NCBI RefSeq assembly: GCF_000234805.1
Contig: NC_016645.1
Coordinates: 248,001 to 312,000, forward strand
Source of the DNA: Pyrobaculum ferrireducens
Lineage (GTDB): Archaea > Thermoproteota > Thermoprotei > Thermoproteales > Thermoproteaceae
Direction of reading: 5' to 3'
Length of the DNA stretch: 64,000 nucleotides
Below, one piece after another: positions 2,260 to 17,873 of the stretch. Every line of letters begins with the position of its first letter. The stretch's first letter is position 1. The notes under the pieces are model-generated. The model was given only the letters and a program-made list of their open reading frames with translations, ran no database searches and was not told where the DNA came from. Made by a program: the position numbers and the translations under genes.

Positions 2260-2586
2260 CTACCTAAGTGAGTATAGCTTTTTAAAAGCCGAAACAGCGA
2301 CTAACCCCTTTCGTCTTATCATAAGCTTCCAATACACAGCTTCAAAGTCGTCAATCTCCTCTCTTAAGACTTTAACAAGGCGATACTTGTCCTCCACGTA
2401 GGGGTATATTTTTGCGAAGACGTACGCCTTGGCTACCTGTGGGAGATTACTCCAGTCATCCCTCAACTCAAGAGTTCCGCCAAAGAGCTCATACCACCAC
2501 TTCACACCCTCTGCGCTAAACGATGCAAGCTTTGTACCCCTCTGCATCAACACAGCCCTGCGACCTACAACTCTCAGCACTATCAT
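2260..2586 (-). CDS. small protein coupled to the DUF499 ATPase
   Basis: A 108-residue protein whose ATG at 2586 overlaps the TGA of the ATPase gene in an ATGA arrangement, so it is probably translationally coupled and belongs to the same operon. A TTG two codons earlier is also open but less likely. It is basic and mixed alpha/beta, with a central stretch rich in Tyr/Lys/Glu (AYVFAKIYPYVEDKYRLVKV). No motif I recognise. By position it may be an accessory factor of the helicase-methylase-ATPase system. Confidence 0.75.
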   Translation of the reverse strand: MIVLRVVGRRAVLMQRGTKLASFSAEGVKWWYELFGGTLELRDDWSNLPQVAKAYVFAKIYPYVEDKYRLVKVLREEIDDFEAVYWKLMIRRKGLVAVSAFKKLYSLR

Positions 2587-5321
2587 GAGCAACTCCTTAC
2601 GCGTGCCAGTATCTTCACATCGTTGTAAATCTTAGCAAGATTCGCCACCGGTTGCGTTATCTCTTTCTCCTTCACATCAACCTCTAGCGAAACACTAGCC
2701 CTACCCCCCTCACTCCCTAAGGTGATTAGATACGACAAAAGCTTCTTTACTGCGGCGAGATCCTTGGCGCTCCATGTAGAAGTGATCCCCTCGTCGCTAA
2801 ACTCCGCAGAGGCGCTGGCGTCTACCACCTCTACCCCCACGGTGGATAGTTGCTCTATCAACAACTTCACCCTATAGACGTCTTCGCCGCTTATACTCAG
2901 GTGGAGTAGAGAGGAGCCCACAGCCTCGCCCAGCGGGACAATTTTCTCTACACACGTAGGCTGCGGCTTTGCTACATCAACAACTTCAACAGGCTTGACG
3001 GCCTTTTTTGCCGTCTCGACACGATCAACCACTTCCTTCGGAGGACTCAGTAGGATGGACTGCGCATCTCTAGGATCACACTCAAGCATCTTTAACGCCT
3101 TCCTAACGATTTCCGAATCTGGCAGACTCCTCAGCTCTTTCTCAGCTTGCGGCCAGTAATACGTGGTACCGCAACTCAGCACGACTTTACCCTCCTCTGC
3201 GAGCCTTTTCAAAACACTATCTATCTCGTCTGGGCTGGTGATGGGGAGGTCGGGATCTCGGTATAAGTCTTCCTTTGCCTCAGATATAAGGACTCTACCA
3301 GCATTTCTTAACCTAGGCTCTAGATAGGTCTGGAAGTAAAACTTGTCATTAAGCGACTCGACGAATTTTGCTATATCCTCCAGCGTCCTCTTTATCTGAG
3401 CTGATAAAAGCTCCCTAAGCTTAACAGCCGCCTTCTCCCCCCTCTCCAACGGCCCCCCGAGCTCCAGCTCAATCTTCTGGAACAAGACATCCCTTCCATA
3501 TGGAATAGCAAGACAGTTAAACGATCTATAGAACGTGATGTAGAAGTCAAGAGCCTTCTTCTCACAGAGCGCCTCTAATCTCCTCAACTGATCACCCTGA
3601 AACCTCTTCTTAAGCGACTCACATGCCACTAGGTACTTAGCCTGGTCAAGCGGGACCCCGCCGTGTAGAAGCACAACGAAGCTATTCCTATACTTCAGGC
3701 GGTCAGCCATACTCACAAGCTCTTCCAAACCTCGATTGCAGTCAACACCGGGGGACCTAGGCGACCATATATAAAGCCGGAACGCCTTCTCGTCCTTAAC
3801 CTCAGAGGGCGCCGTCAAGACGTCTATGTGGAATCTCCACCACTTGAGAGATCTCTTGAGGCGGTCCACCTCCTCTGCCAGCACCTCAAAAGCCTCGTCG
3901 TCCCGCACAGCGTTCTTGCTCTCTTCAAGAACCTTGTTAATATTAGGCTCTGCTTGGAACCAGTACCTATTCCCCTCAGTCTCCATGTACCACAGCCTCT
4001 CCAGCAACTCCTCCACCGCCTTGTCAACCGCTTTTGGATCTGTTAATTTCGGCTTGGCGGCTAGCGTCCTGATGTCGGCAAGAGTCGCACCTGTCTTCTT
4101 CACGTCGCCGCCAATGAGGGAATACACGTATAGCCCAGCCGCGGCGTAGTAATGCAACTCCCCAAGCCGCCGAGCCTCCGCCAAGTCGTGATCTATTATA
4201 CCCGCATACGAAGGCCTCCCTACACCTACCGTAAAGAAGTCCTTAAACTCCCTATCCAGCAGATCCAGATCTCCGGGCAAAATAAAGTCGCGGAACTCCT
4301 TGACGCCAGACAGCTTTTTATAAGCGGCAAGCGACAAGATATATATCAAGTCACGAGTCCTCTGAAACTCCGGTATCGTCGACGTCCTCTCCCACAAAGT
4401 CCTGATAAAAGCTGGGTGAAACGGATAAGCCAGCCTCAGCTCATTAATGCCCACCCACCCGCTATTAAACAACTCACCCCACTTCTTGTAGTAATTGGCG
4501 TATTCAGCAGCCGCGGCCTCGGCATCGGCCTCATCAACCCGTCTAAACAGCCTCCTCTTGATAATCTTATAGACCTCCTCAACACTGGCAATAGGCACAT
4601 GGTCGGTCCCACCCCTTCTAAGCACCTCATACAAATCCGACAGCTTCTTCTTAACCCAATCAGAATAAGGCGCGGAATCATCAGGCATCGACACGACGAG
4701 AATATCGCGGTTTCCAAGAGCGTCAGTAAGCCTACGGAAGAAAAGCAGAGTAGCCGACGCCTCCTGATCCCTTTGCTGGGGCCTCCGCGTCTCCAAAAAC
4801 CTGAAAAACTCACCCAGCTCGTCAACGATAATAACAACAGGCCCCTTGCCCTCAAGAGCTGACTTCAACACATCGGTCTCAGGCACCTCGCGGCCAAGAC
4901 TCCGGTTAAGACAACGCTCTAGAAACAACCACGGCGGCCACAGATTCTCAGCAGACATATCCACCGCGCACACCGAGGCCTCGGGGACACCATATCGGCT
5001 AACAAAACTCCCCACCTCTGTGTTTTCAATACGCCCTAGATCCACCCTGAACAAGTAATACACAGCGGCCAAGATATGCGTCTTACCCCCGCCAAAGCCA
5101 GATTTCAAAATCAAAACCGTATCACCACCCCTCCCAGAAACCCTACCCAACACATTTGATAAAACCTTTTGTAAAGTCTCAGTCAAGTGGGTATATTCAA
5201 AAAACTTGACAGCGTCGTCGTACGGCGGCGGGGCGTTGCCCCTCAAGATCCTCCACAGAGAAACAGCAACGTCCTCCTTAGTAAAGCGCCCAGCTGCGAT
5301 CTCCTCCCTCAACTCAATCAT
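2583..5321 (-). CDS. DUF499-family ATPase (COG1483), defence system component
   Basis: A 912-residue predicted cytoplasmic ATPase. It has a Walker A GFGGGKTH at residues 75-82, following the hydrophobic strand VLILKS, and a Walker B VVIIVDELGEFF at 162-173. These belong to the DUF499/COG1483 family, which is found in defence islands with a DUF1156 methylase and a helicase. The C-terminal third is predicted mixed alpha/beta, with the Pro/Val linker near residues 755-785 separating a last domain. Its ATG overlaps the methylase stop by four bases (ATGA), and the next small gene overlaps its own stop the same way. The biochemical role of DUF499 is not settled; it may couple ATP hydrolysis to control of the methylase and helicase. 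Confidence 0.9.
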   Translation of the reverse strand: MIELREEIAAGRFTKEDVAVSLWRILRGNAPPPYDDAVKFFEYTHLTETLQKVLSNVLGRVSGRGGDTVLILKSGFGGGKTHILAAVYYLFRVDLGRIENTEVGSFVSRYGVPEASVCAVDMSAENLWPPWLFLERCLNRSLGREVPETDVLKSALEGKGPVVIIVDELGEFFRFLETRRPQQRDQEASATLLFFRRLTDALGNRDILVVSMPDDSAPYSDWVKKKLSDLYEVLRRGGTDHVPIASVEEVYKIIKRRLFRRVDEADAEAAAAEYANYYKKWGELFNSGWVGINELRLAYPFHPAFIRTLWERTSTIPEFQRTRDLIYILSLAAYKKLSGVKEFRDFILPGDLDLLDREFKDFFTVGVGRPSYAGIIDHDLAEARRLGELHYYAAAGLYVYSLIGGDVKKTGATLADIRTLAAKPKLTDPKAVDKAVEELLERLWYMETEGNRYWFQAEPNINKVLEESKNAVRDDEAFEVLAEEVDRLKRSLKWWRFHIDVLTAPSEVKDEKAFRLYIWSPRSPGVDCNRGLEELVSMADRLKYRNSFVVLLHGGVPLDQAKYLVACESLKKRFQGDQLRRLEALCEKKALDFYITFYRSFNCLAIPYGRDVLFQKIELELGGPLERGEKAAVKLRELLSAQIKRTLEDIAKFVESLNDKFYFQTYLEPRLRNAGRVLISEAKEDLYRDPDLPITSPDEIDSVLKRLAEEGKVVLSCGTTYYWPQAEKELRSLPDSEIVRKALKMLECDPRDAQSILLSPPKEVVDRVETAKKAVKPVEVVDVAKPQPTCVEKIVPLGEAVGSSLLHLSISGEDVYRVKLLIEQLSTVGVEVVDASASAEFSDEGITSTWSAKDLAAVKKLLSYLITLGSEGGRASVSLEVDVKEKEITQPVANLAKIYNDVKILARVRSCS

Positions 5322-6958
5322 ACAAACTCTAGAACACCCCTATCTTTAAAGACCGATCTACAAAACATAGCGGCGAAGTTATTGACAGTATTCTTGTCAA
5401 CACCCCAGTTCTTGTACACAGCCTCAATAAACCTACACACATCCTGCATGGTAAACGGAAAGTTAGCATTCTGCAGATAGCTATTCACCTCCTGACTACC
5501 TTTGCTCTTGAATTTGCACAACATGGCGTGAACCACGTCGACGAGGGCATTGGGGAACTTACCAGCGACTTTGCACCTATCGGTAAAATCCACCAGCTCA
5601 AACACCTTCTCTTTGGTCTTCTTCCGCTCTCTTATCAGGCCCATTCTCTGAAGCTCTGTGCTGGAGGCAAAGATTTTAGAAAGGAGGTGGAGAGTATCAC
5701 TATCGAAACCTCCAGGATAGTTGTTAACGACGTATACGTAAAACGCTGTGTACTTATCTGGCGCAGATCCCCCATATAGAAACTCCACTACGGCTTTTGC
5801 CGCTATCTCGTCGGCAAAGGTGATTACATTCTCCACCGGGTTCCCCCTAAGAGACTCCAGCCTACCCGCTTGGGTGGCGATTTTAAGCGCCACGCCGTAA
5901 GCCGCAATTGTAAGATCCACCCCCCTGTAGCCCTCCCCCCACAGTTCCCTTACCGTCTTCTTAATTTCGCTCTCCATCGACGGCTTCAGCTTCTCCACGT
6001 AAGCCACAGACTCCTCCAGACGAGGTTTCGCCACTATGATAAGCGACGAAATAAAAGAGGCCTTACCAACAGCTTGCACGTCTGCCTCTGCAAAGGACTT
6101 AATGGGAAAGACGTTCACAACTCTGAAACCCGCCTCTATCAAGGCCTCGAGAATAAAGACCCAAGCCTCTCTCCTAGAGTGGGCGTAATACAGCACAAGT
6201 AGCCCATCGTCTTGTAACACTCTTCTGATTTCCTTAAACGCCAACTTTGTGAGATTCCTAAAGTGTTCCTCGCTTCTCCCGCCACCTACACTTAAGTCCT
6301 CTGCTGAACGGTCGCGCCACAGCGTCAAGAAAGAGAAGGCCTCTGGATACAGATCTCCCACTACTCTCTTAAGCCATACGTACACAAAGTCGTAAGACTC
6401 TGGATACGGTATATTATCGAAATAGGGAGGATCCGTGACGACATACTTAATAGACTTATTGGGAAACGGCAGTCTTAGAGCAGAGCCGAGAACGGCGTCA
6501 AGCCTCCCAGCCCCTTCAGTGGCGCTGTGGAGAAAAGCCACGCCATCAATCACGTCATGCAACGCCCCCCACAGCGATCCAGAACTTAACGAAAATGGAT
6601 TTGTTTCAACATAATCCCAAGACATCCTCAACACCTTATGTGAAAGCGTGTGCCCTACTATTAATTTAGATTTATGCCATGTCGTAAGGAGCGAGTTGTA
6701 GTCTGCTTGTTTGGCCACCAGCCACGCTAGGACAGTCTTAATGTCGCCATCATTTAGAGATTTAATTTTCTCCACTAGTTTATTCAGGTAGTAGTGTTGC
6801 CTCTTATTGAATAAGTCTCCGAACTTCTTGTATCCATATAGAGGCGGAACGACGTTACGTGGATCGTTCGGCGCTATCAGCTCCTCTATTACATCGGTGT
6901 GTGGAACTGCATCGTAGGCCTGTCTGTCTACCGATCTTGCGGGGTAAAACTTTTTATT
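5318..6958 (-). CDS. DNA adenine methylase (DUF1156/COG1743 type), C-terminal part in shifted frame
   Basis: This frame carries the catalytic motif IV VVTDPPYFDNIPY (DPPY about 43 codons-by-three downstream of the internal ATG at 6775, residues 115-118 from there), which belongs with the motif I in the neighbouring N-terminal ORF. An ATG start at 6775 is possible, but the frame is open and protein-like well upstream of it (KFYPARSVDRQAYDAV, then PLYGYKKFGDLFNKR). It joins the N-terminal ORF exactly at the A7 run at 6957-6963. A -1 slip or one added A in the mRNA would give a single protein of about 840 residues, near normal length for the family. The stop overlaps the ATPase start. Confidence 0.85.
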   Translation of the reverse strand, partial: NKKFYPARSVDRQAYDAVPHTDVIEELIAPNDPRNVVPPLYGYKKFGDLFNKRQHYYLNKLVEKIKSLNDGDIKTVLAWLVAKQADYNSLLTTWHKSKLIVGHTLSHKVLRMSWDYVETNPFSLSSGSLWGALHDVIDGVAFLHSATEGAGRLDAVLGSALRLPFPNKSIKYVVTDPPYFDNIPYPESYDFVYVWLKRVVGDLYPEAFSFLTLWRDRSAEDLSVGGGRSEEHFRNLTKLAFKEIRRVLQDDGLLVLYYAHSRREAWVFILEALIEAGFRVVNVFPIKSFAEADVQAVGKASFISSLIIVAKPRLEESVAYVEKLKPSMESEIKKTVRELWGEGYRGVDLTIAAYGVALKIATQAGRLESLRGNPVENVITFADEIAAKAVVEFLYGGSAPDKYTAFYVYVVNNYPGGFDSDTLHLLSKIFASSTELQRMGLIRERKKTKEKVFELVDFTDRCKVAGKFPNALVDVVHAMLCKFKSKGSQEVNSYLQNANFPFTMQDVCRFIEAVYKNWGVDKNTVNNFAAMFCRSVFKDRGVLEFV

Positions 6959-7842
6959 TTTTTATCTTTGGTGATGACTAAGACGAGCCGATCGTTTCCC
7001 TTTATTTTTTCTCTTATGTAGCTGTTGCTTATGGCGGCTCCGCACTTGGGACACTTCCCGTCTCCTTCTCTGATTGTCCCTTCTATATCCTCATTGGTTA
7101 TTTCAACTTCGTAGTCCCCGTCTTTGTAAACGGGCCTCCAATAAACGCCCCGCTTTGAGTCAAGGCCGTAATCCAGCACTAGTGGGACCCACGCTCCGCA
7201 TTTTGGACACCTCACCTGTTTTACCCACAGGTAGTGGGCTACCTCATCCCCGTCATATGGGGGGTAGTACTGCGCCAATTCTTCCTCTAACTCTTTAGCT
7301 ATTCTACACGCCTCTTTGAGCAAGACGCCGGCTTTGTCTACCTGGGGATCGTTGCATAAGGCCTTCATATCTGCTCCGAAGCCCCTTCTGTACCTCTTCT
7401 TTAGCTCTTCCCATACTTTTACGTTGATGAGATCGCGTCTCCTTTGGATTATTTCAATGGTTTTCAGTGCCAGCCACTGTACGGGGTTATAGTCTATAGC
7501 TACAGCATCTGCCCCAAGCCTTATAGCTTCGAGGGGGATGGAGCCCCCTCCGGCGAATGGATCAAGGATTTTGACGCCTTTGAGCCTTTCTTTGATTTCA
7601 GCTGGGGGATTTTTCTCAAAGCCTTCCTCTGGTAGGCCTAACGCCTTCTTTGCCAGTTGGTGATCCAGATCCTCGAAGAGGGCTGTGAGTAGTATGAATC
7701 TGGAGACTATTAGGGGGGCTCGTGCAAGGGAGGTGGCCATTTCGAAGTGAGGGGGTCTGTAACTTCTCTCTTTGACCGCGAGTGCGTCTACTTGTCTCTT
7801 TATTTCTTTCCAGGGTCCTGAAAAAGGTCTCTCAATTATCAT
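6928..7842 (-). CDS. DNA adenine methylase (DUF1156/COG1743 type), N-terminal part
   Basis: Begins at ATG 7842, overlapping the last 11 bases of the helicase gene. The DUF1156-like N-terminus (residues 30-60) is followed by the SAM-binding motif I KILDPFAGGGSIPLEA at 92-106, then two CPKC zinc-ribbon knuckles near residues 216 and 267. That matches the description of COG1743 as an adenine-specific methylase with a zinc ribbon. In the zero frame the protein runs into out-of-frame sequence (KSFTPQDR) and stops at 6928, before the catalytic DPPY motif. Alone it cannot be a complete enzyme. Full function needs frameshifting at the A7 run, or the gene is broken. Confidence 0.85.
   Translation of the reverse strand: MIIERPFSGPWKEIKRQVDALAVKERSYRPPHFEMATSLARAPLIVSRFILLTALFEDLDHQLAKKALGLPEEGFEKNPPAEIKERLKGVKILDPFAGGGSIPLEAIRLGADAVAIDYNPVQWLALKTIEIIQRRRDLINVKVWEELKKRYRRGFGADMKALCNDPQVDKAGVLLKEACRIAKELEEELAQYYPPYDGDEVAHYLWVKQVRCPKCGAWVPLVLDYGLDSKRGVYWRPVYKDGDYEVEITNEDIEGTIREGDGKCPKCGAAISNSYIREKIKGNDRLVLVITKDKKIKSFTPQDR
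6950..6966 (-). other. A7 slippage or frameshift site in the methylase gene
   Basis: On the minus strand the sequence reads GAT AAA AAA ATA AAA AG. A one-base backward slip on AAA AAA, or one extra A added by RNA polymerase, changes the frame from the N-terminal ORF to the C-terminal ORF and restores a continuous methylase. The alternatives are a true inactivating frameshift or a sequencing error in the homopolymer. Confidence 0.7.
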
Positions 7843-10798
7843 ATGGTAGCTCTACTGTTGGTGTTATTAGTTTGGTGAATTCGTTGTAGGGTATTACGTA
7901 TTTCTCTTGTGTTACTTTGTATTTACGTACGTGGTTTGCCAAGTGGGTACAGGGATCGCGGTATTTTTTCACTGTATTGTTGCTTAGGTCTACCACGTAT
8001 AGATACATGTGGTTTTTAAGCGCCTTTGTGTACTGTAGATCTACGAGTAGGGCGGCGCGGCGGGCGCGGTTTGTCTTGCTGGCGCACAGCGCGGCCCACT
8101 CCACTGGCTGAATGTGGATTTTGCTGTCTGGGCCTTTTACCGTCTTTACCTCCACCAGTCTGACTCCGTCGGGGCATACAGCTATGTAGTCGACACCTGT
8201 CATTGGTATGTGTCTCAGATCAACTATGTGGCACCCCTCTTTTCTATCTAGTTCCATGGCTATTTCCTCGCCTTTGGCGCCTTGTTCCATCAAGTCGCTT
8301 CCCCACTCGACTCCTAGCGTGAGGTAGCCTAGTGGCTTGTATATGGCTGTGAATAAGGTTGCCGTCTCTATCTTGGCATTGCCGCATGCCTCTCTCAGCA
8401 TGTTAACTGTTGCCTCTAGTTTCTGTAGGAGCTCTTCTTTTTGGCTGGCTTTTTGTGCTTCTGTTAGGCCCTTTTTCTTGTCTATTGCTTTTAGCATGGA
8501 GGTGTACTCGGCGAGTATGGCGTTTTCCTTGTTTTGACAGAGTTTTTTGACTTGCTCCTGTAGCTTTGCCTTCACTTCACCTAGTGCCTCTTCGGGTGGC
8601 TGTGGGCTTTGTTTTGACTCCTGTATATATATGGGGAGGGTAATAGCGGAGAGTGGGACTTGGCCTTTTTGGCACTGGGTGGTGTTGGGCTGGTAGTAGG
8701 CGGCTACGTGGCTTAGTGTGTATTTTTCTAAGCGGTGTCCTTCGGGAATAGCAACCTCTGCCGTGCCTTTTATGACCCAGAGGTTGCCGTCTGCGTAGCA
8801 CGGCTTGTCTACCTCTGCCAATATGGAGCTTGGGAGTTTTTCTAGGTGGTACTGAATTACTGCCTTGGCGAGGGGGTGTTCTACAGTTATCCTCTCGGGG
8901 CAGTTTGACGAGAGGCCGAAGCCGACTAGGCCTGTGCACGCCCCGCGGCAGAGACTGGCTAGCTCTTTTGGTAGGTATTTTATTCTGAAGCAACCACCTG
9001 CCTCGTCGTATGATCTGGGGTCGAGGGTGTTTAGCGTGCCGAGTACCAGGGTTTGGAGTTCCTCATCCGTGACGTAGTCTATACATCTAGGATCTTTTTG
9101 GAGTCTGACTCGGTCTTTTACTAGCAGGTCCTCTAGATCTTTAAGGGTGGCTTTTGACTGCGCGAGGCGTTCTACTTCTTCTGAGGGGTCTCGGCCTTTC
9201 AGCGCTGCGTCGATTAGCTTGGCGAAGTCTCTCTCGTCGGCGAGGTTTCCTAGGTATTCAAACACTCTGCCGAGCGCTTTTCTTATCTCCTCTAACTTCT
9301 TGAGGAGGAGTTCGTAGACGCGTCCGTCTATGGTGCCGTCGAGTAGGAAGTTGTAGACTAAGACGGGCCTCCTCTGGCCGTATCTGTGCACTCTGCCGAT
9401 TCTCTGATCTATGCGTGTGGGGTTCCACGGGAGGTCGTAGTTGATTAGGAGATTCGCGACTTGGAGGTTGAGGCCTTCTGAGGCGGCGTCTGTTGCCACT
9501 AGGATCTGGCCTTTGTCTCTGAACTCGGCCTCGGCCGCTTTGCGCTCCTCGTCTGACATGCCTCCGTGGAGGAGAACTACGTGGTAGCCGTCTTTTCTTA
9601 GCCTCTCTGCGAGATAGTGCATTGTGTCTCTGTACTGGGTGAAGACGATTATCTTTTCTGAGACCTTTCCCAAGACCTCTCCTAGTACCTTTTTCAATGT
9701 GTTATACTTGGTGTCAGTGGCGAGGGCTTGGCCAAGCTGGTGTAATCTCCTTAGCATTTCAATCTCCTTGTCTAGCTGGGTCTCGTCGACTACGCGTTGT
9801 ATAGCCTCAAGCTCGCTTTTCGGGGTTTCGGTTGGCTTGAGCAGGCCCCTCTTTATGGCTTCTAAGGCTTTTAGTCTTCTCTCGATGGTCCTCATGGCGG
9901 CGTATGTGCTTGAGGACGCTCTCTTTAGGAATACCGTAGCCACGAGGCCTATGGCCGCCCTGCGCTTCCCCTTGTACTTCTGGGCTATTCCGTAGTAGTA
10001 CCGGACGTACTTCTCGACCTCTCCGTAGAACTGCGCCTCGTCAGGTGAGGGGGCTATTTTCAACGTTGTGGAGTGTCTCTCTGGTATGCCGGTTTCGTCG
10101 TGGACGTCCTCTCTTAGTCTCCTAACGACGTACCTCTTAACGGCAAGTCTAAGAGAGTCGTCGTCTGTAACTGAGCGGTCTATGAGCCTTATCCGTGCCA
10201 TGAAGTCTAGCCTATCCCCGTGGTGTGGAGTGGCCGAGAGGAGCAGGACGTTTTTCGTAGCGGAGGCCAGCCTCTCGGCGGCTTGGTACCTCTTGGTGGG
10301 TTCGCGGCCCCTTGCGGTTAGGTTATGTGCCTCGTCGAATACCACGAAGTCCCACCCCTGTTGAAGAAAGTCATCTACCCTCCTTTTCAAGAAATCTATG
10401 GAGACGATGCCGCAGTTGGTATCGCAACGCTCTCTGCAGACTTGGCACTCTATGTCGAATTTCTCCGCCAGTTCTCTCATCCACTGGAAGACCAGCATCT
10501 TCGGCACGACGAGTAGCACCTTCTTTACGTGGCCTCTCATCATTAGCTCTTTTATCAAGAGGCCGGCCATGACGGTTTTGCCGAGGCCGACATCGTCGGC
10601 GAGTAACAGCCTAACTGCCCCCTCCTCGTAGTAGCGACGCAGTCCAAAATTTACAAAATCAAGCTGATACCTAAGAGCATCAACTCTACTATGCGAAGGA
10701 TTTACACACGGCGTGTAGTTACTAAGTAGATGAATCCTCAAGGCAAGCAGTGAAAGCAAGTTATATGGATACGGGGAATATCCCCCGCTAGAGGCCAT
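7832..10798 (-). CDS. SNF2-type superfamily 2 helicase with DUF3883 domain, defence system component
   Basis: A 988-residue ATP-dependent DNA translocase, first gene of the helicase-methylase-ATPase operon. Motifs: I DDVGLGKT (about 68-75), II FDEAH (about 155), III LSATPHHGD, V ATDAASEGLNLQ and VI QRIGRVHRYGQ near 480. A C-terminal DUF3883 region (near 850-930) has GVDYIAVCPDGVRLVEVKT, resembling a restriction-endonuclease-like core. Between motifs Ia and II there is an unusual cysteine cluster, C-x2-C-x3-C-x3-C (residues about 118-129), which could bind a metal. The ATG at 10798 is preferred to the TTG at 10810 because a TATA-like element (10822-10833) lies about 28 bases upstream. Confidence 0.92.
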   Translation of the reverse strand: MASSGGYSPYPYNLLSLLALRIHLLSNYTPCVNPSHSRVDALRYQLDFVNFGLRRYYEEGAVRLLLADDVGLGKTVMAGLLIKELMMRGHVKKVLLVVPKMLVFQWMRELAEKFDIECQVCRERCDTNCGIVSIDFLKRRVDDFLQQGWDFVVFDEAHNLTARGREPTKRYQAAERLASATKNVLLLSATPHHGDRLDFMARIRLIDRSVTDDDSLRLAVKRYVVRRLREDVHDETGIPERHSTTLKIAPSPDEAQFYGEVEKYVRYYYGIAQKYKGKRRAAIGLVATVFLKRASSSTYAAMRTIERRLKALEAIKRGLLKPTETPKSELEAIQRVVDETQLDKEIEMLRRLHQLGQALATDTKYNTLKKVLGEVLGKVSEKIIVFTQYRDTMHYLAERLRKDGYHVVLLHGGMSDEERKAAEAEFRDKGQILVATDAASEGLNLQVANLLINYDLPWNPTRIDQRIGRVHRYGQRRPVLVYNFLLDGTIDGRVYELLLKKLEEIRKALGRVFEYLGNLADERDFAKLIDAALKGRDPSEEVERLAQSKATLKDLEDLLVKDRVRLQKDPRCIDYVTDEELQTLVLGTLNTLDPRSYDEAGGCFRIKYLPKELASLCRGACTGLVGFGLSSNCPERITVEHPLAKAVIQYHLEKLPSSILAEVDKPCYADGNLWVIKGTAEVAIPEGHRLEKYTLSHVAAYYQPNTTQCQKGQVPLSAITLPIYIQESKQSPQPPEEALGEVKAKLQEQVKKLCQNKENAILAEYTSMLKAIDKKKGLTEAQKASQKEELLQKLEATVNMLREACGNAKIETATLFTAIYKPLGYLTLGVEWGSDLMEQGAKGEEIAMELDRKEGCHIVDLRHIPMTGVDYIAVCPDGVRLVEVKTVKGPDSKIHIQPVEWAALCASKTNRARRAALLVDLQYTKALKNHMYLYVVDLSNNTVKKYRDPCTHLANHVRKYKVTQEKYVIPYNEFTKLITPTVELPYDN

Positions 10799-10891: not shown

Positions 10892-12022
10892 ATGACCCTG
10901 CCCACCAATAGGCATGGAGGATCTGGCCGGCTTACATCATCATCCACTTCAATTGCTGAGTTAAAAGCAACTGCACGTAGATTAAATAATATAAGTGATA
11001 TATCTGAAATAGATGATCTTAGAAATAGAGCTATTATTAGTATAGGTGGATTTGTCTTATTCATAATAATCAGTTTGGTATTTTTGTACACTCATAGTTC
11101 TAGGTTTTCTTCTATCGAAAGACTAAAAGAAGTCGTTGATCGACGCCTTTCGCGTCTCGTTCAGAATTGGGGTGATGAAGGATTAAAGACATTAGCTATG
11201 GAAAATGCGAAGCGCTGGCTTGAAGAGATGTTGCAAATAGCAGGTAGGTATTCTGACGAAGGGGTAGTGAGGCGGGTTATTCGTGAAACCGTTCTCACAT
11301 GGTTGGATAAATATGAGGAGGAAATAATGAAAGGCTATATTTCTGTAGCACGCTACTTGATAAAGATCCACGGGTTAGAAAAATATGTAAAAGGGTTTAA
11401 GTCTCTACTCTCGCCTATCAAACCAGTGGAGCAACATCGAGCTCTATACGTGTATTGGTGGACTGATACAAAGAAATATGTGGCTTGGAGCCTAAGTAGA
11501 GTTGGAATAATTGTACCTCATGGAAGTAGGGTTTTAGTTCCTACGTGGTTTTGGGAACTAGATACATCAGTAAGTGGGGGGAGAGAAATAATACAGATTG
11601 TGGGAGATTTAGGCAAGTGGTTGAGGGACTTGGAGTGCCCAGATAAGTGGAAAAGCTGTGTAATTACTGCAATTGGGGAATACGTGAATGGTCATCTGGA
11701 ATCAGCATTGCAACGGGTGTTAATATGTCTTGACTCGGCTCTTGACAAAGTCGCTAGTCTTCTTGGTGCTTTTAAAGAGAGCGGTGCAAAAGATGGAAAG
11801 AAGCGTATAGACTACGACAGAATTTCTGAGGAGTTGAGGAGAATAGCTGACATTAACGTTGACCCACATGAGTTAGAGAAGATGCGCAAGATGCGGAATT
11901 ATGTGGCTCATACCCCGAAGCCGGATGTAGACTTTGTAGAGGCTAATTCTGTATTTTATCGATCTTTGTATATAATGAAGGGCCTTTGCAAGATTTTAAT
12001 CTCTAAAGAGGAAAAAATTTAG
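10892..12022 (+). CDS. membrane-anchored protein with C-terminal HEPN-like motif
   Basis: A 376-residue protein with one clear membrane segment near residues 47-67 (ISIGGFVLFIIISLVFLY), a helix-rich body and a C-terminal segment with RNYVAH at about 335-340. That R-N-Y-V-A-H pattern in a helical context (MRKMRNYVAHT) matches the R-x4-6-H signature of HEPN ribonuclease domains, common in defence and toxin systems. Codon use is markedly more AT-rich than the neighbours, suggesting recent transfer. It is divergent from the helicase-methylase-ATPase operon and could be a membrane effector or an unrelated passenger. The HEPN call rests on one motif. Confidence 0.65.
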   Translation: MTLPTNRHGGSGRLTSSSTSIAELKATARRLNNISDISEIDDLRNRAIISIGGFVLFIIISLVFLYTHSSRFSSIERLKEVVDRRLSRLVQNWGDEGLKTLAMENAKRWLEEMLQIAGRYSDEGVVRRVIRETVLTWLDKYEEEIMKGYISVARYLIKIHGLEKYVKGFKSLLSPIKPVEQHRALYVYWWTDTKKYVAWSLSRVGIIVPHGSRVLVPTWFWELDTSVSGGREIIQIVGDLGKWLRDLECPDKWKSCVITAIGEYVNGHLESALQRVLICLDSALDKVASLLGAFKESGAKDGKKRIDYDRISEELRRIADINVDPHELEKMRKMRNYVAHTPKPDVDFVEANSVFYRSLYIMKGLCKILISKEEKI

Positions 12023-12101
12023 GGTTGATAATGAAAGTATTGTAGATATATAACTTTGTATTACGCCGGCTTGTGTGTTCCGGTTCCATTTAGGGCTGTG
12101 C

Positions 12102-12284
12102 CTATAGGGTTATCGACGAATCCGTTTGCGATTGTTGATCTGGGCCTAGTCGCCTCATCAGGTCGTTTACCATGTAGCCGCCTCCGTTTACCACGACGGC
12201 TCGGTCTGCGTATTTAGGGAGGTTTTGTATTGTCTTGGTGGGGTCTTTGAAGACTACCGACCCCCCGATCTTTATGACTATCAT
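12102..12284 (-). pseudogene. lysZ: 5' fragment of lysZ (LysW-aminoadipate/glutamate kinase)
   Basis: Starts [15 protein letters not shown] and continues to [18 protein letters not shown], the first two motifs of amino-acid kinases of the acetylglutamate kinase/LysZ family. After about 48 residues the sequence degenerates and stops; a full gene has about 260 codons. The ATG overlaps the TGA of the lysY fragment, as in intact lys operons, so this is a piece of the real operon junction left behind rather than a new gene. Confidence 0.8.
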
Positions 12285-12481
12285 ATGGGGGCGGTGGGTA
12301 TTGTCCTCAGCCCCTCATCCTCTGGGAAGCCCATGGCGATGTTAAAAGCCTGCACAGCCTGGCCTGCGGCGCCTCTAACTAGGATGTCTATCGCGGCAAA
12401 GGCGACTGCCCAGCCGAGGCGGTGGCAGTTCGATTTCTGGCTACGTCGTCGGCGTGAGCTCGGTGCCTGTATGTGTTTCAA
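12281..12481 (-). pseudogene. lysY: 3' fragment of lysY (LysW-aminoadipate-semialdehyde reductase)
   Basis: The last 50 or so residues (GWAVAFAAIDILVRGAAGQ, then [16 protein letters not shown]) match the C-terminus of the ArgC/LysY family, where the G-A-x-G-Q-A-V-Q motif is highly conserved. Upstream of about 12448 the resemblance is lost and the frame becomes Arg/Ser-rich. Only about one seventh of the gene remains. It joins the lysZ fragment with the native overlap. Confidence 0.75.
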
Positions 12482-12499
12482 CTATCTTTGGTCTCCGGC
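12428..12499 (+). repeat. two partial CRISPR-repeat-like sequences in the lysY relic
   Basis: GTTTCAACTATCTTT at 12475-12489 is identical to 15 bases of the reverse complement of the window's CRISPR repeat and continues with weaker similarity to 12498. Upstream at 12428-12440, TTCGATTTCTGG matches 11 of the last 12 bases of the same repeat in the same orientation. Between them are 34 bases. The layout is end-of-repeat, spacer-sized gap, start-of-repeat. It could be a decayed CRISPR unit or coincidence. Confidence 0.35.
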
Positions 12500-12635
12500 G
12501 CCCCCCCTTTCAACAGGGCTACACTCGTAGGGCCTAATTTCCTTTCAACTACCAGATGGCAGGCAGTAGGAAGATGTGGGCATGGAGGGTGTAGATGTAG
12601 TAGTTCATTTAATAATTTGTTAAACCCCACGCCTC

Positions 12636-13499
12636 ATGTCTAGAGGCCGGTATGTATACGAAGACCCCTCGATCGGGGCTATTATTTCAGCTGTCGCCGT
12701 CGTCGACTTTATCTTGGGGGAGAGGCTTTATGAGAGTTATCTAAAACAGACCATCAAGGGTCCTGGGGATTTATCCCTAGTCTACAAAAACGCCAAGGTT
12801 GTAGTAATTGAATTTAAAGCCCCAGAGCTAGCTACGTGCAACTGGAGGAAATGCTGGAGGTATGAAATTGGACAAGTAAGGAGTAGCCTCTTTAACAAAT
12901 ACTTACAGCTAGCCAGTAAAGGGTTGCTGTTCTTAGGTCTGGTACACGGCTTGGTCAAGCCATCCAGAGCCCCGCCTAACGGCGACGCGACATTTCGCTA
13001 CGCGCCTCTAACCACAGCCTTCGTACCTCCAAACGACGCCGGACGATGCCTAACAATGCTAAGTCAAAAGAACACTACGACGTTAAATATAACTAGTGGA
13101 TATATCTGGTTTCGTTATCTATTTCGCGATTGTGATATAGATCCTAGACGTGTTTACTTTGTAGATCTTACACGTGTTACATACCGGCGGGATTTTGTAT
13201 GGCGCTATTTTGCCACTTGTACATGTGAAAGATATGCTTGTAACTACGCCATAGGCAGAATATGGACTCAAGAGTGCGGACAACTAAAAATAATAGATCT
13301 AGCCAATTTGCTTTGTTGTCTAATAAAGTGTAAATTTGGCAAACTGGATGAAGAAGCCAAGGACTTGTTGAAAATGGTAGCGTCTTATTTGCAAGAAGCT
13401 CCACACGAGGCCCCATATCTATATGTCCTAACGTCTACCTTAGAGCTAATTCCACTACGCGACTTCATAGATATGGTGGGAGGAGGAGGGGAGGGGTAA
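12636..13499 (+). CDS. PD-(D/E)xK nuclease-like protein of unknown family
   Basis: A 287-residue protein. Residues about 44-60 read GDLSLVYKNAKVVVIEFKAP, the D...ExK arrangement on a beta-hairpin expected of PD-(D/E)xK nucleases. Downstream is a helix with a conserved-looking Gln and Tyr (GQVRSSLFNKYLQLA). The middle holds a Cys-rich patch (FATCTCERYACNYA). The ATG at 12636 is about 25 bases after a TATA-like TTTAATAA (12609-12616), so it is probably leaderless. It stands alone between the defence operon and the 1379-residue P-loop protein. The nuclease call is an inference from the motif; substrate unknown. Confidence 0.6.
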   Translation: MSRGRYVYEDPSIGAIISAVAVVDFILGERLYESYLKQTIKGPGDLSLVYKNAKVVVIEFKAPELATCNWRKCWRYEIGQVRSSLFNKYLQLASKGLLFLGLVHGLVKPSRAPPNGDATFRYAPLTTAFVPPNDAGRCLTMLSQKNTTTLNITSGYIWFRYLFRDCDIDPRRVYFVDLTRVTYRRDFVWRYFATCTCERYACNYAIGRIWTQECGQLKIIDLANLLCCLIKCKFGKLDEEAKDLLKMVASYLQEAPHEAPYLYVLTSTLELIPLRDFIDMVGGGGEG

Positions 13500-13516
13500 T
13501 CCACCTACACCCCTAG

Positions 13517-13708
13517 ACGTCTAAGCCCCAGATCGCCGGTTTAGAGAAGTGTCTGTTCCTCTTTCCCGCTTTTAGAAGTGGCAGAGGTTTCGAAAATGTA
13601 CTAGTGAACCCCAATCTAAAACCGTGCCAAGACTTCCAAACTCCCACACAATACATATACAGAGAGCTAGAGGCGGCCGCTGTAACAACCCGGCTGAGAG
13701 ATAAGTGA
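13517..13708 (+). pseudogene. open frame without start, possible gene remnant
   Basis: Sixty-three codons are open from 13517 to a TGA at 13706-13708 (for example GLEKCLFLFPAFRSGRGF and YIYRELEAAAVTTRLRDK). The composition is protein-like, but there is no start codon near the beginning. The frame ends just before the TATA box of the next gene. It may be the tail of a lost gene or of a frameshifted end of the preceding gene. Family unknown. Confidence 0.3.
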
Positions 13709-13733
13709 TATATATAAACCCGCCCACATCACC

Positions 13734-16700
13734 GTGGTTGTCGCTGGCGACTTGTTTGCGCCGTATAATAAGGAGAGGGCTGACCGGTACCCCTTCCCCG
13801 CTGTGGTGGTTGGACCGCCTCGTAGCGGCAAGACATTCTTTAGAACTAACTACGGGGTGGAGGCCGGGGAGAAGATCGCCGTCGAGAAGAGCGAACTCGC
13901 CGAGGAGGCGGGTGGGGGGCCGTATAGGCTGGTCTACTACATCCCGTGGGACGACGCGGAGAGATACGCCAGCGGCGACGCAAAGAGGGCCGTCGAGCTA
14001 ATCAAACGGCATTTTACGCCTGTGGAGTACCTCGGGGTAAGATACATGCCGCCTGGCTTCGTGGCTGAGGTGGTGAGGAGGCTGGAGGAGGGCGGCGAGG
14101 GAGCCGCCGTGAAGTACCTAGAAGAGCAACGGGAGGCCTACGAAAAATTCTCCACGTTGCTGGCGCCGGACAAGTGGGATAGGGTACGTGAAGTGTTTAA
14201 GAGAATTGGCTACTTCACCTTGAGGGAGGCGGTGTCGTTTTTGACGGAGGTATTGTGTATCGCCGGCGCTCTCCCCGTTTCTAAATCCGTCCCCCTCGTT
14301 TCTAAATTTCTAGATCTGGTGGCGGCTGTCATAAAAGTCTTCGGCAAAAACTGGATTACGCAGTGGATAGAGCAGGGGGAGAGGTGGAGAGGCCTACACG
14401 AAGACCTGCGGAAGGTGTTGGCGTGGAGAGCCGCCGCGAAGCTGGGAAGAAGCGGAGAGGAGGTGGAGAAGGCGCTGGACGCGCTCTACGGAATAGACAC
14501 CACAAAGCTGGAGGAGGTGGTGAAGAAAATCGAGGAGAAGCTCGCCGAGCTGGAGAGTGGGGTCTCTAGGCTTGAGGATAGGCTCAAGCCCGTCAACGCC
14601 GTCTATACAGAGCCAGAGGAGCTGGGCGTGGAGCGCAGAGACGGCGTGTTGTACGTAATGGGCGCGCCGTACGTAGATCCGGCGCGGCACGGCCTAGCAC
14701 AAGCCGTGGATGAGGTGGAGAGGAAGGTGCGGGAGGTGGTGGAGAGGGGCGGCGTCCTTGCCATAGTCGGCCCAAGAGGAGTCGGCAAGTCCACACTGGC
14801 TAGGGCCATGCTGGCGGAGGTTCTGAGAAGGGCGGCGGTTAGAGGCGTCGTGGACGTGGGGAGGCTGGGGCACAAGGATTTGCCATATGTGGTTGAGAGA
14901 GTAGGCCGTAGCTATGTCCTGTTCTACGATCCCTCTACGCCTAGATTCTACGAGCTGGGTGGTCTTGAAAAGCCACTGGAAGGGCCGAGTCCTGAGGCCC
15001 CCGGCGTAGTGGCTGAGCTTGTCAACTTAGCGCACCGCGGGGGGCGGCACATAGCGTCGGCGGTTTTGGTACTGCCGGTGGACGTCTACAACGCGCTGGG
15101 CGAGGAGGTGAAGAGGCGCATTACTCCCGTCGTTCTTGACTTGAGGAGCGTGGATTTCCTCGCCGAGATAATGAGGCGGTACTCCGGTTGCCAGCTGGAA
15201 GGAGAGAGACTGAGGGCGCTGGCCGAGGAAATTGCGAAATCCGACGAGGGCCACACCCTAATCGCCAGACTAGTCGGCGAGGAGTTGGGCAGGCGGGGCT
15301 GCCAGCTTGAGAAGGTGGAGGAGATGGTGAAGGCGGCCGGGGGGAAGGCCCTTAGGTTTATGCTTATTTACGTCAACGAGATGTTGAGAGTTAGGTGGAG
15401 GGATCCCTCCGGCACGTATGAAGACGAGGATGTGGCCGAGATTTTTTCACAAATTCTAGCGGCGAGGCAATACTACAGCCGAGACCTAGGCCCGGGGCGC
15501 GTGGTCGCGCCGCCGCTTCTCTTGGAGAGATGGGCTAGGTGGAGATGTGCCAAGTTATTTAAGAGCGAGAGATGTCCCAGAGAGCTCCCGCCCAAAGAGG
15601 TGTACAGCTGGCTCTCCCGGAGGCACCACGACCTGATAGAAACCGCACTGACTCTAGCCGCGTATGCAAATCTGTTAGAAAAAGCGGATAGAGAAGACGT
15701 CCGTAAAATAGTTGAAGACGCGGAGGTGGAGTTGAGAGTTTGGAAAAGGGCGAAGACAAGCCCCTACACCGTTGTCCACTTTCTTGTAGAATACGGCCCC
15801 GATTTAGAAAGGGAGTGGGAGGGGGCCACCTGTCTAGAGAAATTTGCATTGATGCTCGGCGCCGCCATCGCTGACCAACCATACAAGCCATTTGCCGAAG
15901 CGGCAGAGGAGGCTGAAGAAGACCTAAAGGACGCCGCCGAAAGGATAGGGAGGAGGTGTGTGATAGACGGCTATCTGCTGGCCGACGGCGAGCTGACGCC
16001 ATTCACCCGCGAGCTTCTGCGGGCAATGGCCTTAGAAGGCAAGATGCCGAAGCCCTTCGCAAGCCAACACGGCAAAGCTCTGGAGGAGGTGGAGAAGCTG
16101 GTAAAGACGTGGAGGGAGAGGGGAGGCTTCAAGCGGTGGGAGGCTATCTACGGTCTTGGCTTGGCCGCAGTGGTTGCGAGGGCGGAGGCGCTGGATAGAG
16201 ATGCGGCTGAAAAGGCGCTGGAGGCGGCTGTGCCAGCTGTGCAACGGGCGGGATCTCCGATCGCTGTTGGTGTTATTCTCGACGTGCTTTCGCAGTTGAA
16301 GGAACACGCGCCGAGCTGGTGGGTCGCCGTGCTTTACGCCGCGGCTACGCCGGCTGTGGTTGAGCAAAAGGAACTGGCAGAACGTATTTTAGAAGAGGTT
16401 GAGTGGGCTAAGGAGCGTGTGGAAGAAGACTGGGCAAGAGCGCTACTCGCCGTTGCCTATGCAACAGTGCCTACAAAATATACCGGGTCTGAGGAATCAC
16501 GTGGAGATTTATGTCGGCTTCTAGGCGGTATTCATGACCCTGATTTAAAAACTCTGGCAGAGATAAATACGCTTATGCCCCTTGCCGAGGGAGGCCTCTC
16601 ACCGTGTGGTGTCGACATGTGTACAGAAGAGGCAAGAGAGGGCTGTATGGAGTTTCTGGAAAAGGCGTTTGAAAGGAAGAAAGGCGAGCTGTTGTCAAAA

Positions 16701-17873
16701 CTGGAGGAGCTGAGGGAAAAAGTGAAGAAAAACAAACTAAGCCCGGAACTGGAGAAGTACCTAGCCGCCTTATCTCTAGCGAGGCCACCAGTGGCGATTC
16801 AGATAGTGCTGTCAGTGGCTGAGGCTACGCTGTACCACAGCTTTGCGAGGGTCAAACTATATGCTGGCAAGCTAGAAGAGGCAAAGAAATACTATACCAT
16901 GGCGGCTGAACTTTATAAAAAGCTGGGGCAGTGGGAAAACTACTTAGTTGCTTCTTCTTTGGCCGCTAGAGCCGGTGTGTTGAAAGCTGTTGACCTTCTT
17001 AACGCCGCTGAGATTTTTGAAAAACTGTGGAAAGAAACGAAAGAGCACATAGAGCCGACTGCTGGTATGATGTATGTTGCCTCTGGCGTATTAGCTAAGT
17101 ATCTTGTCTACCTGGCGGCTTCCGGCAGTATAGAAAAGGCGGCTGAGGCGTTAAGAGAACTCGGTTGGTTGCTTAGTTATAGAAGCGATGCACACATCGC
17201 AACTCTCTATATGTTGAGATTGTTAGGCGTTGTGGCGGAGGCGCCAGACACCGGCGAGCTGTTAAAGGCGTTGGAAAGATACGCCCATCCGCTTCTTAAG
17301 CCAGCTCTAGCGGCTTCGCTTGGCGCTCCGCCAAAGCCCATAGATGTAGCGTCGATGTGTGCTGAAGCCGCCGAGGTGACACCCGATTTGTACAAACGTG
17401 TGATTGAAACTACAGAGGGGGATGTTGACCTGTCTCAACTGGGGGAATACGCTTGGCCTTTCGCGTTTTGTCTCGACGCCTACAAAGCCGTTACAGGCGA
17501 CATGGAGGCGCTTAACCGAATACGTGAGCGTGTAAAAGAGTGGTTAATGGAAGGGTCAGAGCTCCTTTCTGTACTAGATCGGCTTGATGCTGTGGGGCTG
17601 GTGCAAGTGTTAGCGCCTATACGCTCACGTGGCCGGCTTATTCTTCTGCTTAGGACCCTCGACGAGGCTAGAGGCGCCGAGGGCGCAGAGCGGGAGAGGC
17701 TTCTCGAGCTGGCGCGGACACACGCGCTGGCAGGCAAATATGAGTATAGGGGGACTATAGGCGAGACGCTTTTCGGCTGGGTAGCCGATGCTGTTAAGAA
17801 ATGCGGCGGCTATACGAACAACTGCGAGGACTTAAAGCTGGCGTTGCTCAAGCTCTACTACCTTCACATCTAG
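13734..17873 (+). CDS. 1379-residue protein with two P-loops and helical repeats (STAND-like)
   Basis: The N-terminal P-loop VVVGPPRSGKTF lies at residues 24-35. A helical and coiled-coil stretch follows (about 225-285), then a second P-loop AIVGPRGVGKST at 343-354 with a following Walker B-like YVLFYDPS. The C-terminal half (about 750-1379) is almost all helix, with TPR-like pairs such as EEAKKYYTMAAELYKKLGQW near residue 1050. P-loop NTPase plus helical repeats is the build of STAND-type sensors, but the two nucleotide sites are unusual. GTG 13734 is about 23 bases after a TATATATAAA box, so it is leaderless. Function unknown; a defence or regulatory role is a guess from layout and context. 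Confidence 0.8.
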   Translation: MVVAGDLFAPYNKERADRYPFPAVVVGPPRSGKTFFRTNYGVEAGEKIAVEKSELAEEAGGGPYRLVYYIPWDDAERYASGDAKRAVELIKRHFTPVEYLGVRYMPPGFVAEVVRRLEEGGEGAAVKYLEEQREAYEKFSTLLAPDKWDRVREVFKRIGYFTLREAVSFLTEVLCIAGALPVSKSVPLVSKFLDLVAAVIKVFGKNWITQWIEQGERWRGLHEDLRKVLAWRAAAKLGRSGEEVEKALDALYGIDTTKLEEVVKKIEEKLAELESGVSRLEDRLKPVNAVYTEPEELGVERRDGVLYVMGAPYVDPARHGLAQAVDEVERKVREVVERGGVLAIVGPRGVGKSTLARAMLAEVLRRAAVRGVVDVGRLGHKDLPYVVERVGRSYVLFYDPSTPRFYELGGLEKPLEGPSPEAPGVVAELVNLAHRGGRHIASAVLVLPVDVYNALGEEVKRRITPVVLDLRSVDFLAEIMRRYSGCQLEGERLRALAEEIAKSDEGHTLIARLVGEELGRRGCQLEKVEEMVKAAGGKALRFMLIYVNEMLRVRWRDPSGTYEDEDVAEIFSQILAARQYYSRDLGPGRVVAPPLLLERWARWRCAKLFKSERCPRELPPKEVYSWLSRRHHDLIETALTLAAYANLLEKADREDVRKIVEDAEVELRVWKRAKTSPYTVVHFLVEYGPDLEREWEGATCLEKFALMLGAAIADQPYKPFAEAAEEAEEDLKDAAERIGRRCVIDGYLLADGELTPFTRELLRAMALEGKMPKPFASQHGKALEEVEKLVKTWRERGGFKRWEAIYGLGLAAVVARAEALDRDAAEKALEAAVPAVQRAGSPIAVGVILDVLSQLKEHAPSWWVAVLYAAATPAVVEQKELAERILEEVEWAKERVEEDWARALLAVAYATVPTKYTGSEESRGDLCRLLGGIHDPDLKTLAEINTLMPLAEGGLSPCGVDMCTEEAREGCMEFLEKAFERKKGELLSKLEELREKVKKNKLSPELEKYLAALSLARPPVAIQIVLSVAEATLYHSFARVKLYAGKLEEAKKYYTMAAELYKKLGQWENYLVASSLAARAGVLKAVDLLNAAEIFEKLWKETKEHIEPTAGMMYVASGVLAKYLVYLAASGSIEKAAEALRELGWLLSYRSDAHIATLYMLRLLGVVAEAPDTGELLKALERYAHPLLKPALAASLGAPPKPIDVASMCAEAAEVTPDLYKRVIETTEGDVDLSQLGEYAWPFAFCLDAYKAVTGDMEALNRIRERVKEWLMEGSELLSVLDRLDAVGLVQVLAPIRSRGRLILLLRTLDEARGAEGAERERLLELARTHALAGKYEYRGTIGETLFGWVADAVKKCGGYTNNCEDLKLALLKLYYLHI

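Follow-up and report, generated by a model that had tools for sequence, protein, structure and literature searches.

A small gene coupled to the DUF499 ATPase gene of a Pyrobaculum Hma operon is a probable fourth component of these defence systems

The window analyzed here, a stretch of 64,000 nucleotides from Pyrobaculum ferrireducens (contig NC_016645.1, positions 248,001 to 312,000), carries a compact run of genes on its minus strand between positions 10798 and 2260. The first encodes a helicase, the next two a DUF1156 methylase and a DUF499 ATPase, and the last is a 108-residue open reading frame (ORF); successive genes share 11, 4 and 4 bases. The helicase gene begins with ATG at 10798 and stops at 7832, 11 bases into the methylase gene, which starts at 7842. 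The DUF499 gene (5321-2583) overlaps the methylase stop (5318) by 4 bases, and the small ORF starts with ATG at 2586, in an ATGA overlap with the DUF499 stop (2583), and ends at 2260. The features are as follows, with G003 denoting another genome of the same genus.

7832..10798, minus strand: HmaA-like SNF2 helicase with a C-terminal PD-(D/E)XK-type (NERD/DUF3883-like) nuclease domain (PADLOC, Pfam, motifs)
6928..7842, minus strand: N-terminal part of HmaB (DUF1156 adenine methylase) with the AdoMet motif DPFAGGG, a zinc-ribbon-like segment and a premature stop (PADLOC, G003 alignment)
about 6949..6969, minus strand: HmaB frameshift site in GATAAAAAAATAAAAAG (A7-T-A5) (frame change between the pieces; no A run in G003)
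5318..6960 (upper end approximate), minus strand: C-terminal part of HmaB in another frame, with the catalytic DPPY; first start codon GTG at 6775 (PADLOC, G003 alignment)
6226..7302, minus strand: central HmaB segment (target-recognition/MTase core) differing from G003 (synonymous sites saturated; amino acid identity 61-85%)
2583..5321, minus strand: HmaC (DUF499 AAA+ ATPase), deep-branching (PADLOC, Pfam, trees)
2260..2586, minus strand: small gene S (108 aa), ATGA-coupled to HmaC; putative diverged S-family member (DUF7680-like; topology as DUF3780) (slot, profile, predicted fold)

Sequence comparison supports the assignment of this operon to the Hma defence systems, as HmaA, HmaB and HmaC are all present in overlapping genes. 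Among the Hma parts, the best PADLOC models are HmaA for the helicase (E 2.3e-95), HmaB for both methylase pieces (E 2.7e-17 for the N-terminal and 2.2e-32 for the C-terminal piece) and HmaC for the ATPase (E 3.7e-57), which also matches Pfam DUF499 (E 2.4e-29). Pfam recognizes SNF2-rel_dom, Helicase_C and a weak, sub-threshold NERD domain (E 9e-4) in HmaA. Its helicase core begins near residue 48, the SNF2 motifs are intact (DDVGLGKT, DEAH, QRIGRVHR), and the C-terminus carries the D...EVK motif of a PD-(D/E)XK nuclease (DYIAVCPDGVRLVEVK) near residue 870; Pfam gives no PLD match for an HKD/phospholipase D nuclease at the N-terminus. The same four genes occur in G003, where the helicase, ATPase and small protein are 97-98% identical to those of the window, so the arrangement is not due to chance. 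An earlier note on this DNA had described a helicase-methylase-ATPase defence operon, which the PADLOC models bear out. It had also described four gene units overlapping by 4-11 bases; the overlaps hold, but the methylase is frameshifted and not a single gene.

Beyond the operon, a 376-aa gene (10892-12022) is divergent from hmaA, as is its 373-aa counterpart in G003; it has no Pfam or PADLOC match. Another locus, L038 in genome G015, contains a short HmaC remnant (L038:7275-7439; 63-70% identity) and, near it, an apparent homologue (L038:11739-15830) of the 1379-aa AAA/nSTAND protein of the window (13734-17873); a TmtA-like HATPase-NOV_C gene separates the two. This locus looks like a decayed Hma system in an island similar to that of the window.

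Because the methylase is interrupted in this genome, the system as sequenced is probably non-methylating, and it may be inactive. The N-terminal piece is 75% identical to residues 1-305 of the intact G003 HmaB, a single open frame of 841 aa, and the C-terminal piece is 80% identical to residues 294-841. Both pieces are free of further stops; thus, the frame change is recent, an assembly error or suppressed. We give somewhat less than an even chance to the reading that the interruption is only a sequencing or assembly error, or is bypassed by slippage, with the system fully active. The position of the break in an A7-T-A5 run, the two open halves and a dN/dS of about 0.09 in the N-terminal half of HmaB agree with it, but the frame-0 codons GAT AAA AAA ATA do not form a canonical -1 heptamer and G003 has no such A run. 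Programmed frameshifting is disfavoured on the same grounds, that is, the absence of a canonical slippery heptamer in frame and of conservation of the run.

Comparison of the two Pyrobaculum sequences suggests that the centre of HmaB has been exchanged. Synonymous divergence (dS) between the window and G003 is 0.06-0.10 in HmaA, HmaC and S, whereas in HmaB it is 0.2-0.8 at the gene ends and saturated from about 7302 to 6226. In this saturated segment, G+C is 47% against 35% in the window/G003 comparison. The segment spans from the AdoMet motif to just beyond DPPY; methylases of the DUF1156-type class carry a target-recognition insert after core strand 2 (PMC12839542). Recombination altering specificity would be the simplest reading, and an exchanged methylase centre in two close genomes hints at how Hma and BREX-related (BR) systems switch DNA specificity.

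Small genes of one family, here called S, repeatedly occupy the position directly 3' of HmaC in Thermoproteota. HmaC genes were collected from 398 Thermoproteota genomes and their loci were then read; 49 genes were assessable, i.e., not found through S, not cut by contig ends and not the window's own. An S-family gene lies directly 3' of HmaC in 33 of these 49, with gaps between -19 and +13 bases in 28 of the 33 and a 4-base overlap in eight. The S-family proteins have 117-236 aa (median 148). The order of the other genes varies: A-B-C-S is found in the window and G003, B-C-S-A and C-S-B-A elsewhere, and HmaB can also stand on the strand opposite to C-S. Through these changes in the position and strand of HmaA and HmaB, the C-S adjacency is preserved. 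The S profile alone, run against the 398 genomes, gave 28 matches, and almost all of these occupied the slot 3' of HmaC. Those outside comprise a relic (L150), one weak, broken match and L151, in which the S gene belongs to a Sulfolobales operon encoding an nSTAND ATPase and a DEAD helicase. Of the eight ORFs that scored at the borderline in the first profile search, seven were likewise directly 3' of HmaC. The earlier note had taken the small gene for a fourth part outside the usual description, a proposal to be doubted if homologues lay mostly away from DUF499. The occupancy of the slot upholds this proposal, and 36 of 39 S genes sit in it, leaving three elsewhere. About one third of HmaC genes have no recognizable S, which suggests that S is dispensable in some systems.

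Several loci in the survey contain other genes of interest. In about 16 Thermoproteota loci, a gene of the metallo-beta-lactamase fold (Lactamase_B + RMMBL, about 425 aa) directly follows HmaA on its 3' side (L040:3890-5137, L041:15362-16627, L074:2799-4100 and other B-C-S-A loci). PMC12839542 does not mention this gene in its main text; it might encode an additional nuclease component of the B-C-S-A branch. In the Sulfolobales operon (L151:5020-11645, on G324:C1), the S-family gene is flanked on one side by a gene for a 1015-aa nSTAND-like ATPase plus a 358-aa gene and on the other by one for a DEAD-box helicase. There is no methylase in it, and it is a different defence-like operon sharing S. 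In one three-gene Hma locus, the post-HmaC slot is held by a DUF2196 + Swt1-like HEPN gene (L104:11533-12177) instead of S. On one branch of the HmaC tree, the slot contains ORFs of 146-184 aa (L089:6582-7022, L090:6802-7356, L092:12995-13453); no S profile recognizes them, and they may be further diverged S genes.

With moderate confidence, we regard the small protein of the window as a diverged member of the S family, as slot, coupling and predicted fold agree with a weak sequence similarity. The profile search that the earlier note had suggested gave a divided result. No library match (PADLOC, Pfam, NCBIfam) was above the cut-off, and there was no match to DUF7680 (PF24728) in Pfam or to DUF3780 (PF12635) in Pfam or NCBIfam. 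A profile of 46 other S proteins did match weakly (E 0.049), scoring the window protein above all other ORFs tested except one S relic, and 1 of 5000 shuffles reached its score. Profile comparison by hhalign (E 0.0035, probability 9%) aligned the C-terminal half with the C-termini in register (window DDFEAVYWKLM...AVSAFKKLYSLR against S E-E--FWYS-F...VAKAFR-LY). The C-terminal signature of the family, an aromatic-W in the penultimate helix and A-[FLW]-[KR]-x-[LF]-[YL] in the last helix, is carried by the window protein as EAVYWK...SAFKKLYSLR, and its W86 is invariant in a 30-sequence alignment. The AF2 model (pLDDT 90.5) has the element order bbb-a-(b)-aaaa; built from an alignment that already assumes kinship, it speaks for the fold but is no proof of descent. 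No convincing match came from fold searches with this model against the PDB (VIA-align Z no higher than 4.3) and BFVD. Alternatively, the small ORF could have an unrelated origin, as a lineage-specific gene that happens to be coupled to HmaC in two genomes of a single genus; the YW/AFKKLY similarity would then be fortuitous. The sub-significant profile scores and the low hhalign probability fit this origin, as does the occurrence of the only recognizable close homologue in G003, with none otherwise in the genome and viral contigs searched. We consider it improbable, given the rank of the match among all ORFs, its rarity among shuffles, its register up to the C-terminus and the presence of S in the same slot of most relatives.

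The S family extends beyond Thermoproteota. S proteins of Bathyarchaeia and methanogens give weak matches to Pfam DUF7680, and profile-profile comparison (hhalign) of the DUF7680-like group with Thermoproteota S gives E 3.5e-7 and a probability of 93, by which sequence measure DUF7680 is homologous to the Thermoproteota S family. When 246 Halobacteriota genomes were searched with the DUF7680 profile, each of the 10 matches immediately followed DUF499 on its 3' side, with C-S-B-A as the prevailing gene order; the tenth (G405) is locus L147 of the HmaC/S locus set. DUF3780 lies directly 3' of DUF499 in all eight bacterial genes examined (one genome, the only one in the first DUF3780 genome searches, and seven plasmids), often with a 4-base overlap; in one of these loci, a split DUF499/FN3 pair precedes it. 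The sequence similarity between DUF3780 and S is not significant (best E 0.013, probability 3), so the case for their kinship is made by slot, topology and the HmaC tree. The AlphaFold model of DUF3780 (pLDDT 83.8) has the order bbb-a-b-aaaa plus a low-confidence tail helix. Its core thus repeats the element order of the window S model (three strands, helix, strand, four helices), and both models have a conserved W in the penultimate helix of this core. A BFVD fold search with the DUF3780 model gave no credible match. DUF3780 probably belongs to the S family.

The HmaC tree helps to place the small gene in the history of these systems. Outside the genus, no sampled HmaC is more than 29% identical to that of the window (504 columns compared). 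The DUF3780, DUF7680 and S2 branches group together (support 89/94), three changes only are enough to account for the presence or absence of a small gene, and the three-gene Hma branch has S carriers as its sister. Given the few changes and this sister position, loss of S in three-gene Hma is the simplest history on this unrooted tree, with gain as the less probable alternative. We lean slightly toward a scenario in which four parts are ancestral to DUF499 systems, the DUF499 ATPase working with a single superfamily of small subunits (window S, Thermoproteota S, DUF7680 and DUF3780) across archaea and in many bacteria, and in which three-gene Hma is derived by loss.

Overall, the operon is in our judgment quite likely an Hma system (Type-1-like, DUF499 BREX-related) in which S is a genuine fourth subunit, forming a family with DUF7680 and probably DUF3780, ancestral and lost in the classical three-gene Hma. 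Judging from known families, HmaB would mark self DNA by adenine methylation (PMC12839542, PMC8565338). By the same reasoning, HmaC, an ORC/Cdc6-like AAA+ ATPase, would assemble a scanning complex on DNA, and HmaA would translocate and cut unmarked invader DNA. Translation of S would be coupled to that of HmaC on a shared message. Where two overlapping genes are conserved as a pair, their products are usually partners, and the C-S adjacency persists through rearrangements; hence, S most likely binds HmaC, acting as an adaptor or reader between this ATPase and either the methylase or the helicase-nuclease. Regulators are sometimes found among the small coupled genes of defence operons, and S could instead be an operon regulator or safety gene (e.g., a small transcriptional regulator or anti-suicide protein) rather than a subunit. 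This role would suit a protein for which no enzymatic motif and no solved relative were found. It is nevertheless unlikely, since S stays beside HmaC through rearrangements and not at the operon start, library searches find no DNA-binding domain in it, and the DUF3780 branch has reported fusions to DNA-modification reader domains (PMC12839542). Rakesh and Krishnan have proposed a modification-reader role for DUF3780. A subunit that contacts HmaC is the role we prefer for S.

A conserved, ATPase-coupled fourth subunit would, if true, change the annotation of Hma/BR systems. These systems have been reported from thousands of taxa, and the detection tools require three genes only. To our knowledge, hardly any experimental work has addressed their mechanism. 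With such a subunit, possible failures in reconstituting archaeal versions from three genes would be explained, DUF7680 would gain a context and be united with DUF3780, and HmaC-S would become a defined pair for biochemistry.

Hma, the BR types and a small fourth gene in one branch (DUF3780, Type-2 BR; PMC12839542) are already known. Like the Hma system of PADLOC (PMC8565338), the window has contiguous HmaA, HmaB and HmaC genes matching the PADLOC models, but it differs in the extra ATGA-coupled small gene, the frameshifted HmaB and the deep-branching HmaC. The Type-1 DUF499-centred BR system has been described with three genes only, for the ATPase, methylase and helicase (PMC12839542). The window shares with it the SNF2 helicase with a C-terminal PD-(D/E)XK nuclease, the DUF1156 N6-methylase and the DUF499 ATPase, whereas the window and many archaeal relatives add a fourth small gene after DUF499. 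No marker of Type-3 BR, i.e., PglZ or inactive STAND genes, is present in the four-gene operon, and there is no PglZ among the neighbours at 10892-17873. In Type-2 BR, DUF3780 is the fourth gene (PMC12839542); as in the window, it lies directly 3' of DUF499, and its product has the same predicted secondary-structure order, but the window helicase has no HKD nuclease match and the window S lacks a DUF3780 profile match. Haloarchaeal DUF7680 (PF24728) occupies the same slot 3' of DUF499 and shares the C-terminal YW...KALR signature with the window S, although it is about 200 aa long compared to 108 aa and its profile does not match the window protein. No published note on DUF7680, or on a small DUF499-adjacent gene in Type-1 systems, was found in the main texts of the open-access literature. 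Together, these comparisons support the S family as a previously unrecognized, widespread fourth component; in most of the sampled archaeal relatives of this system, its gene comes directly after that of the ATPase.
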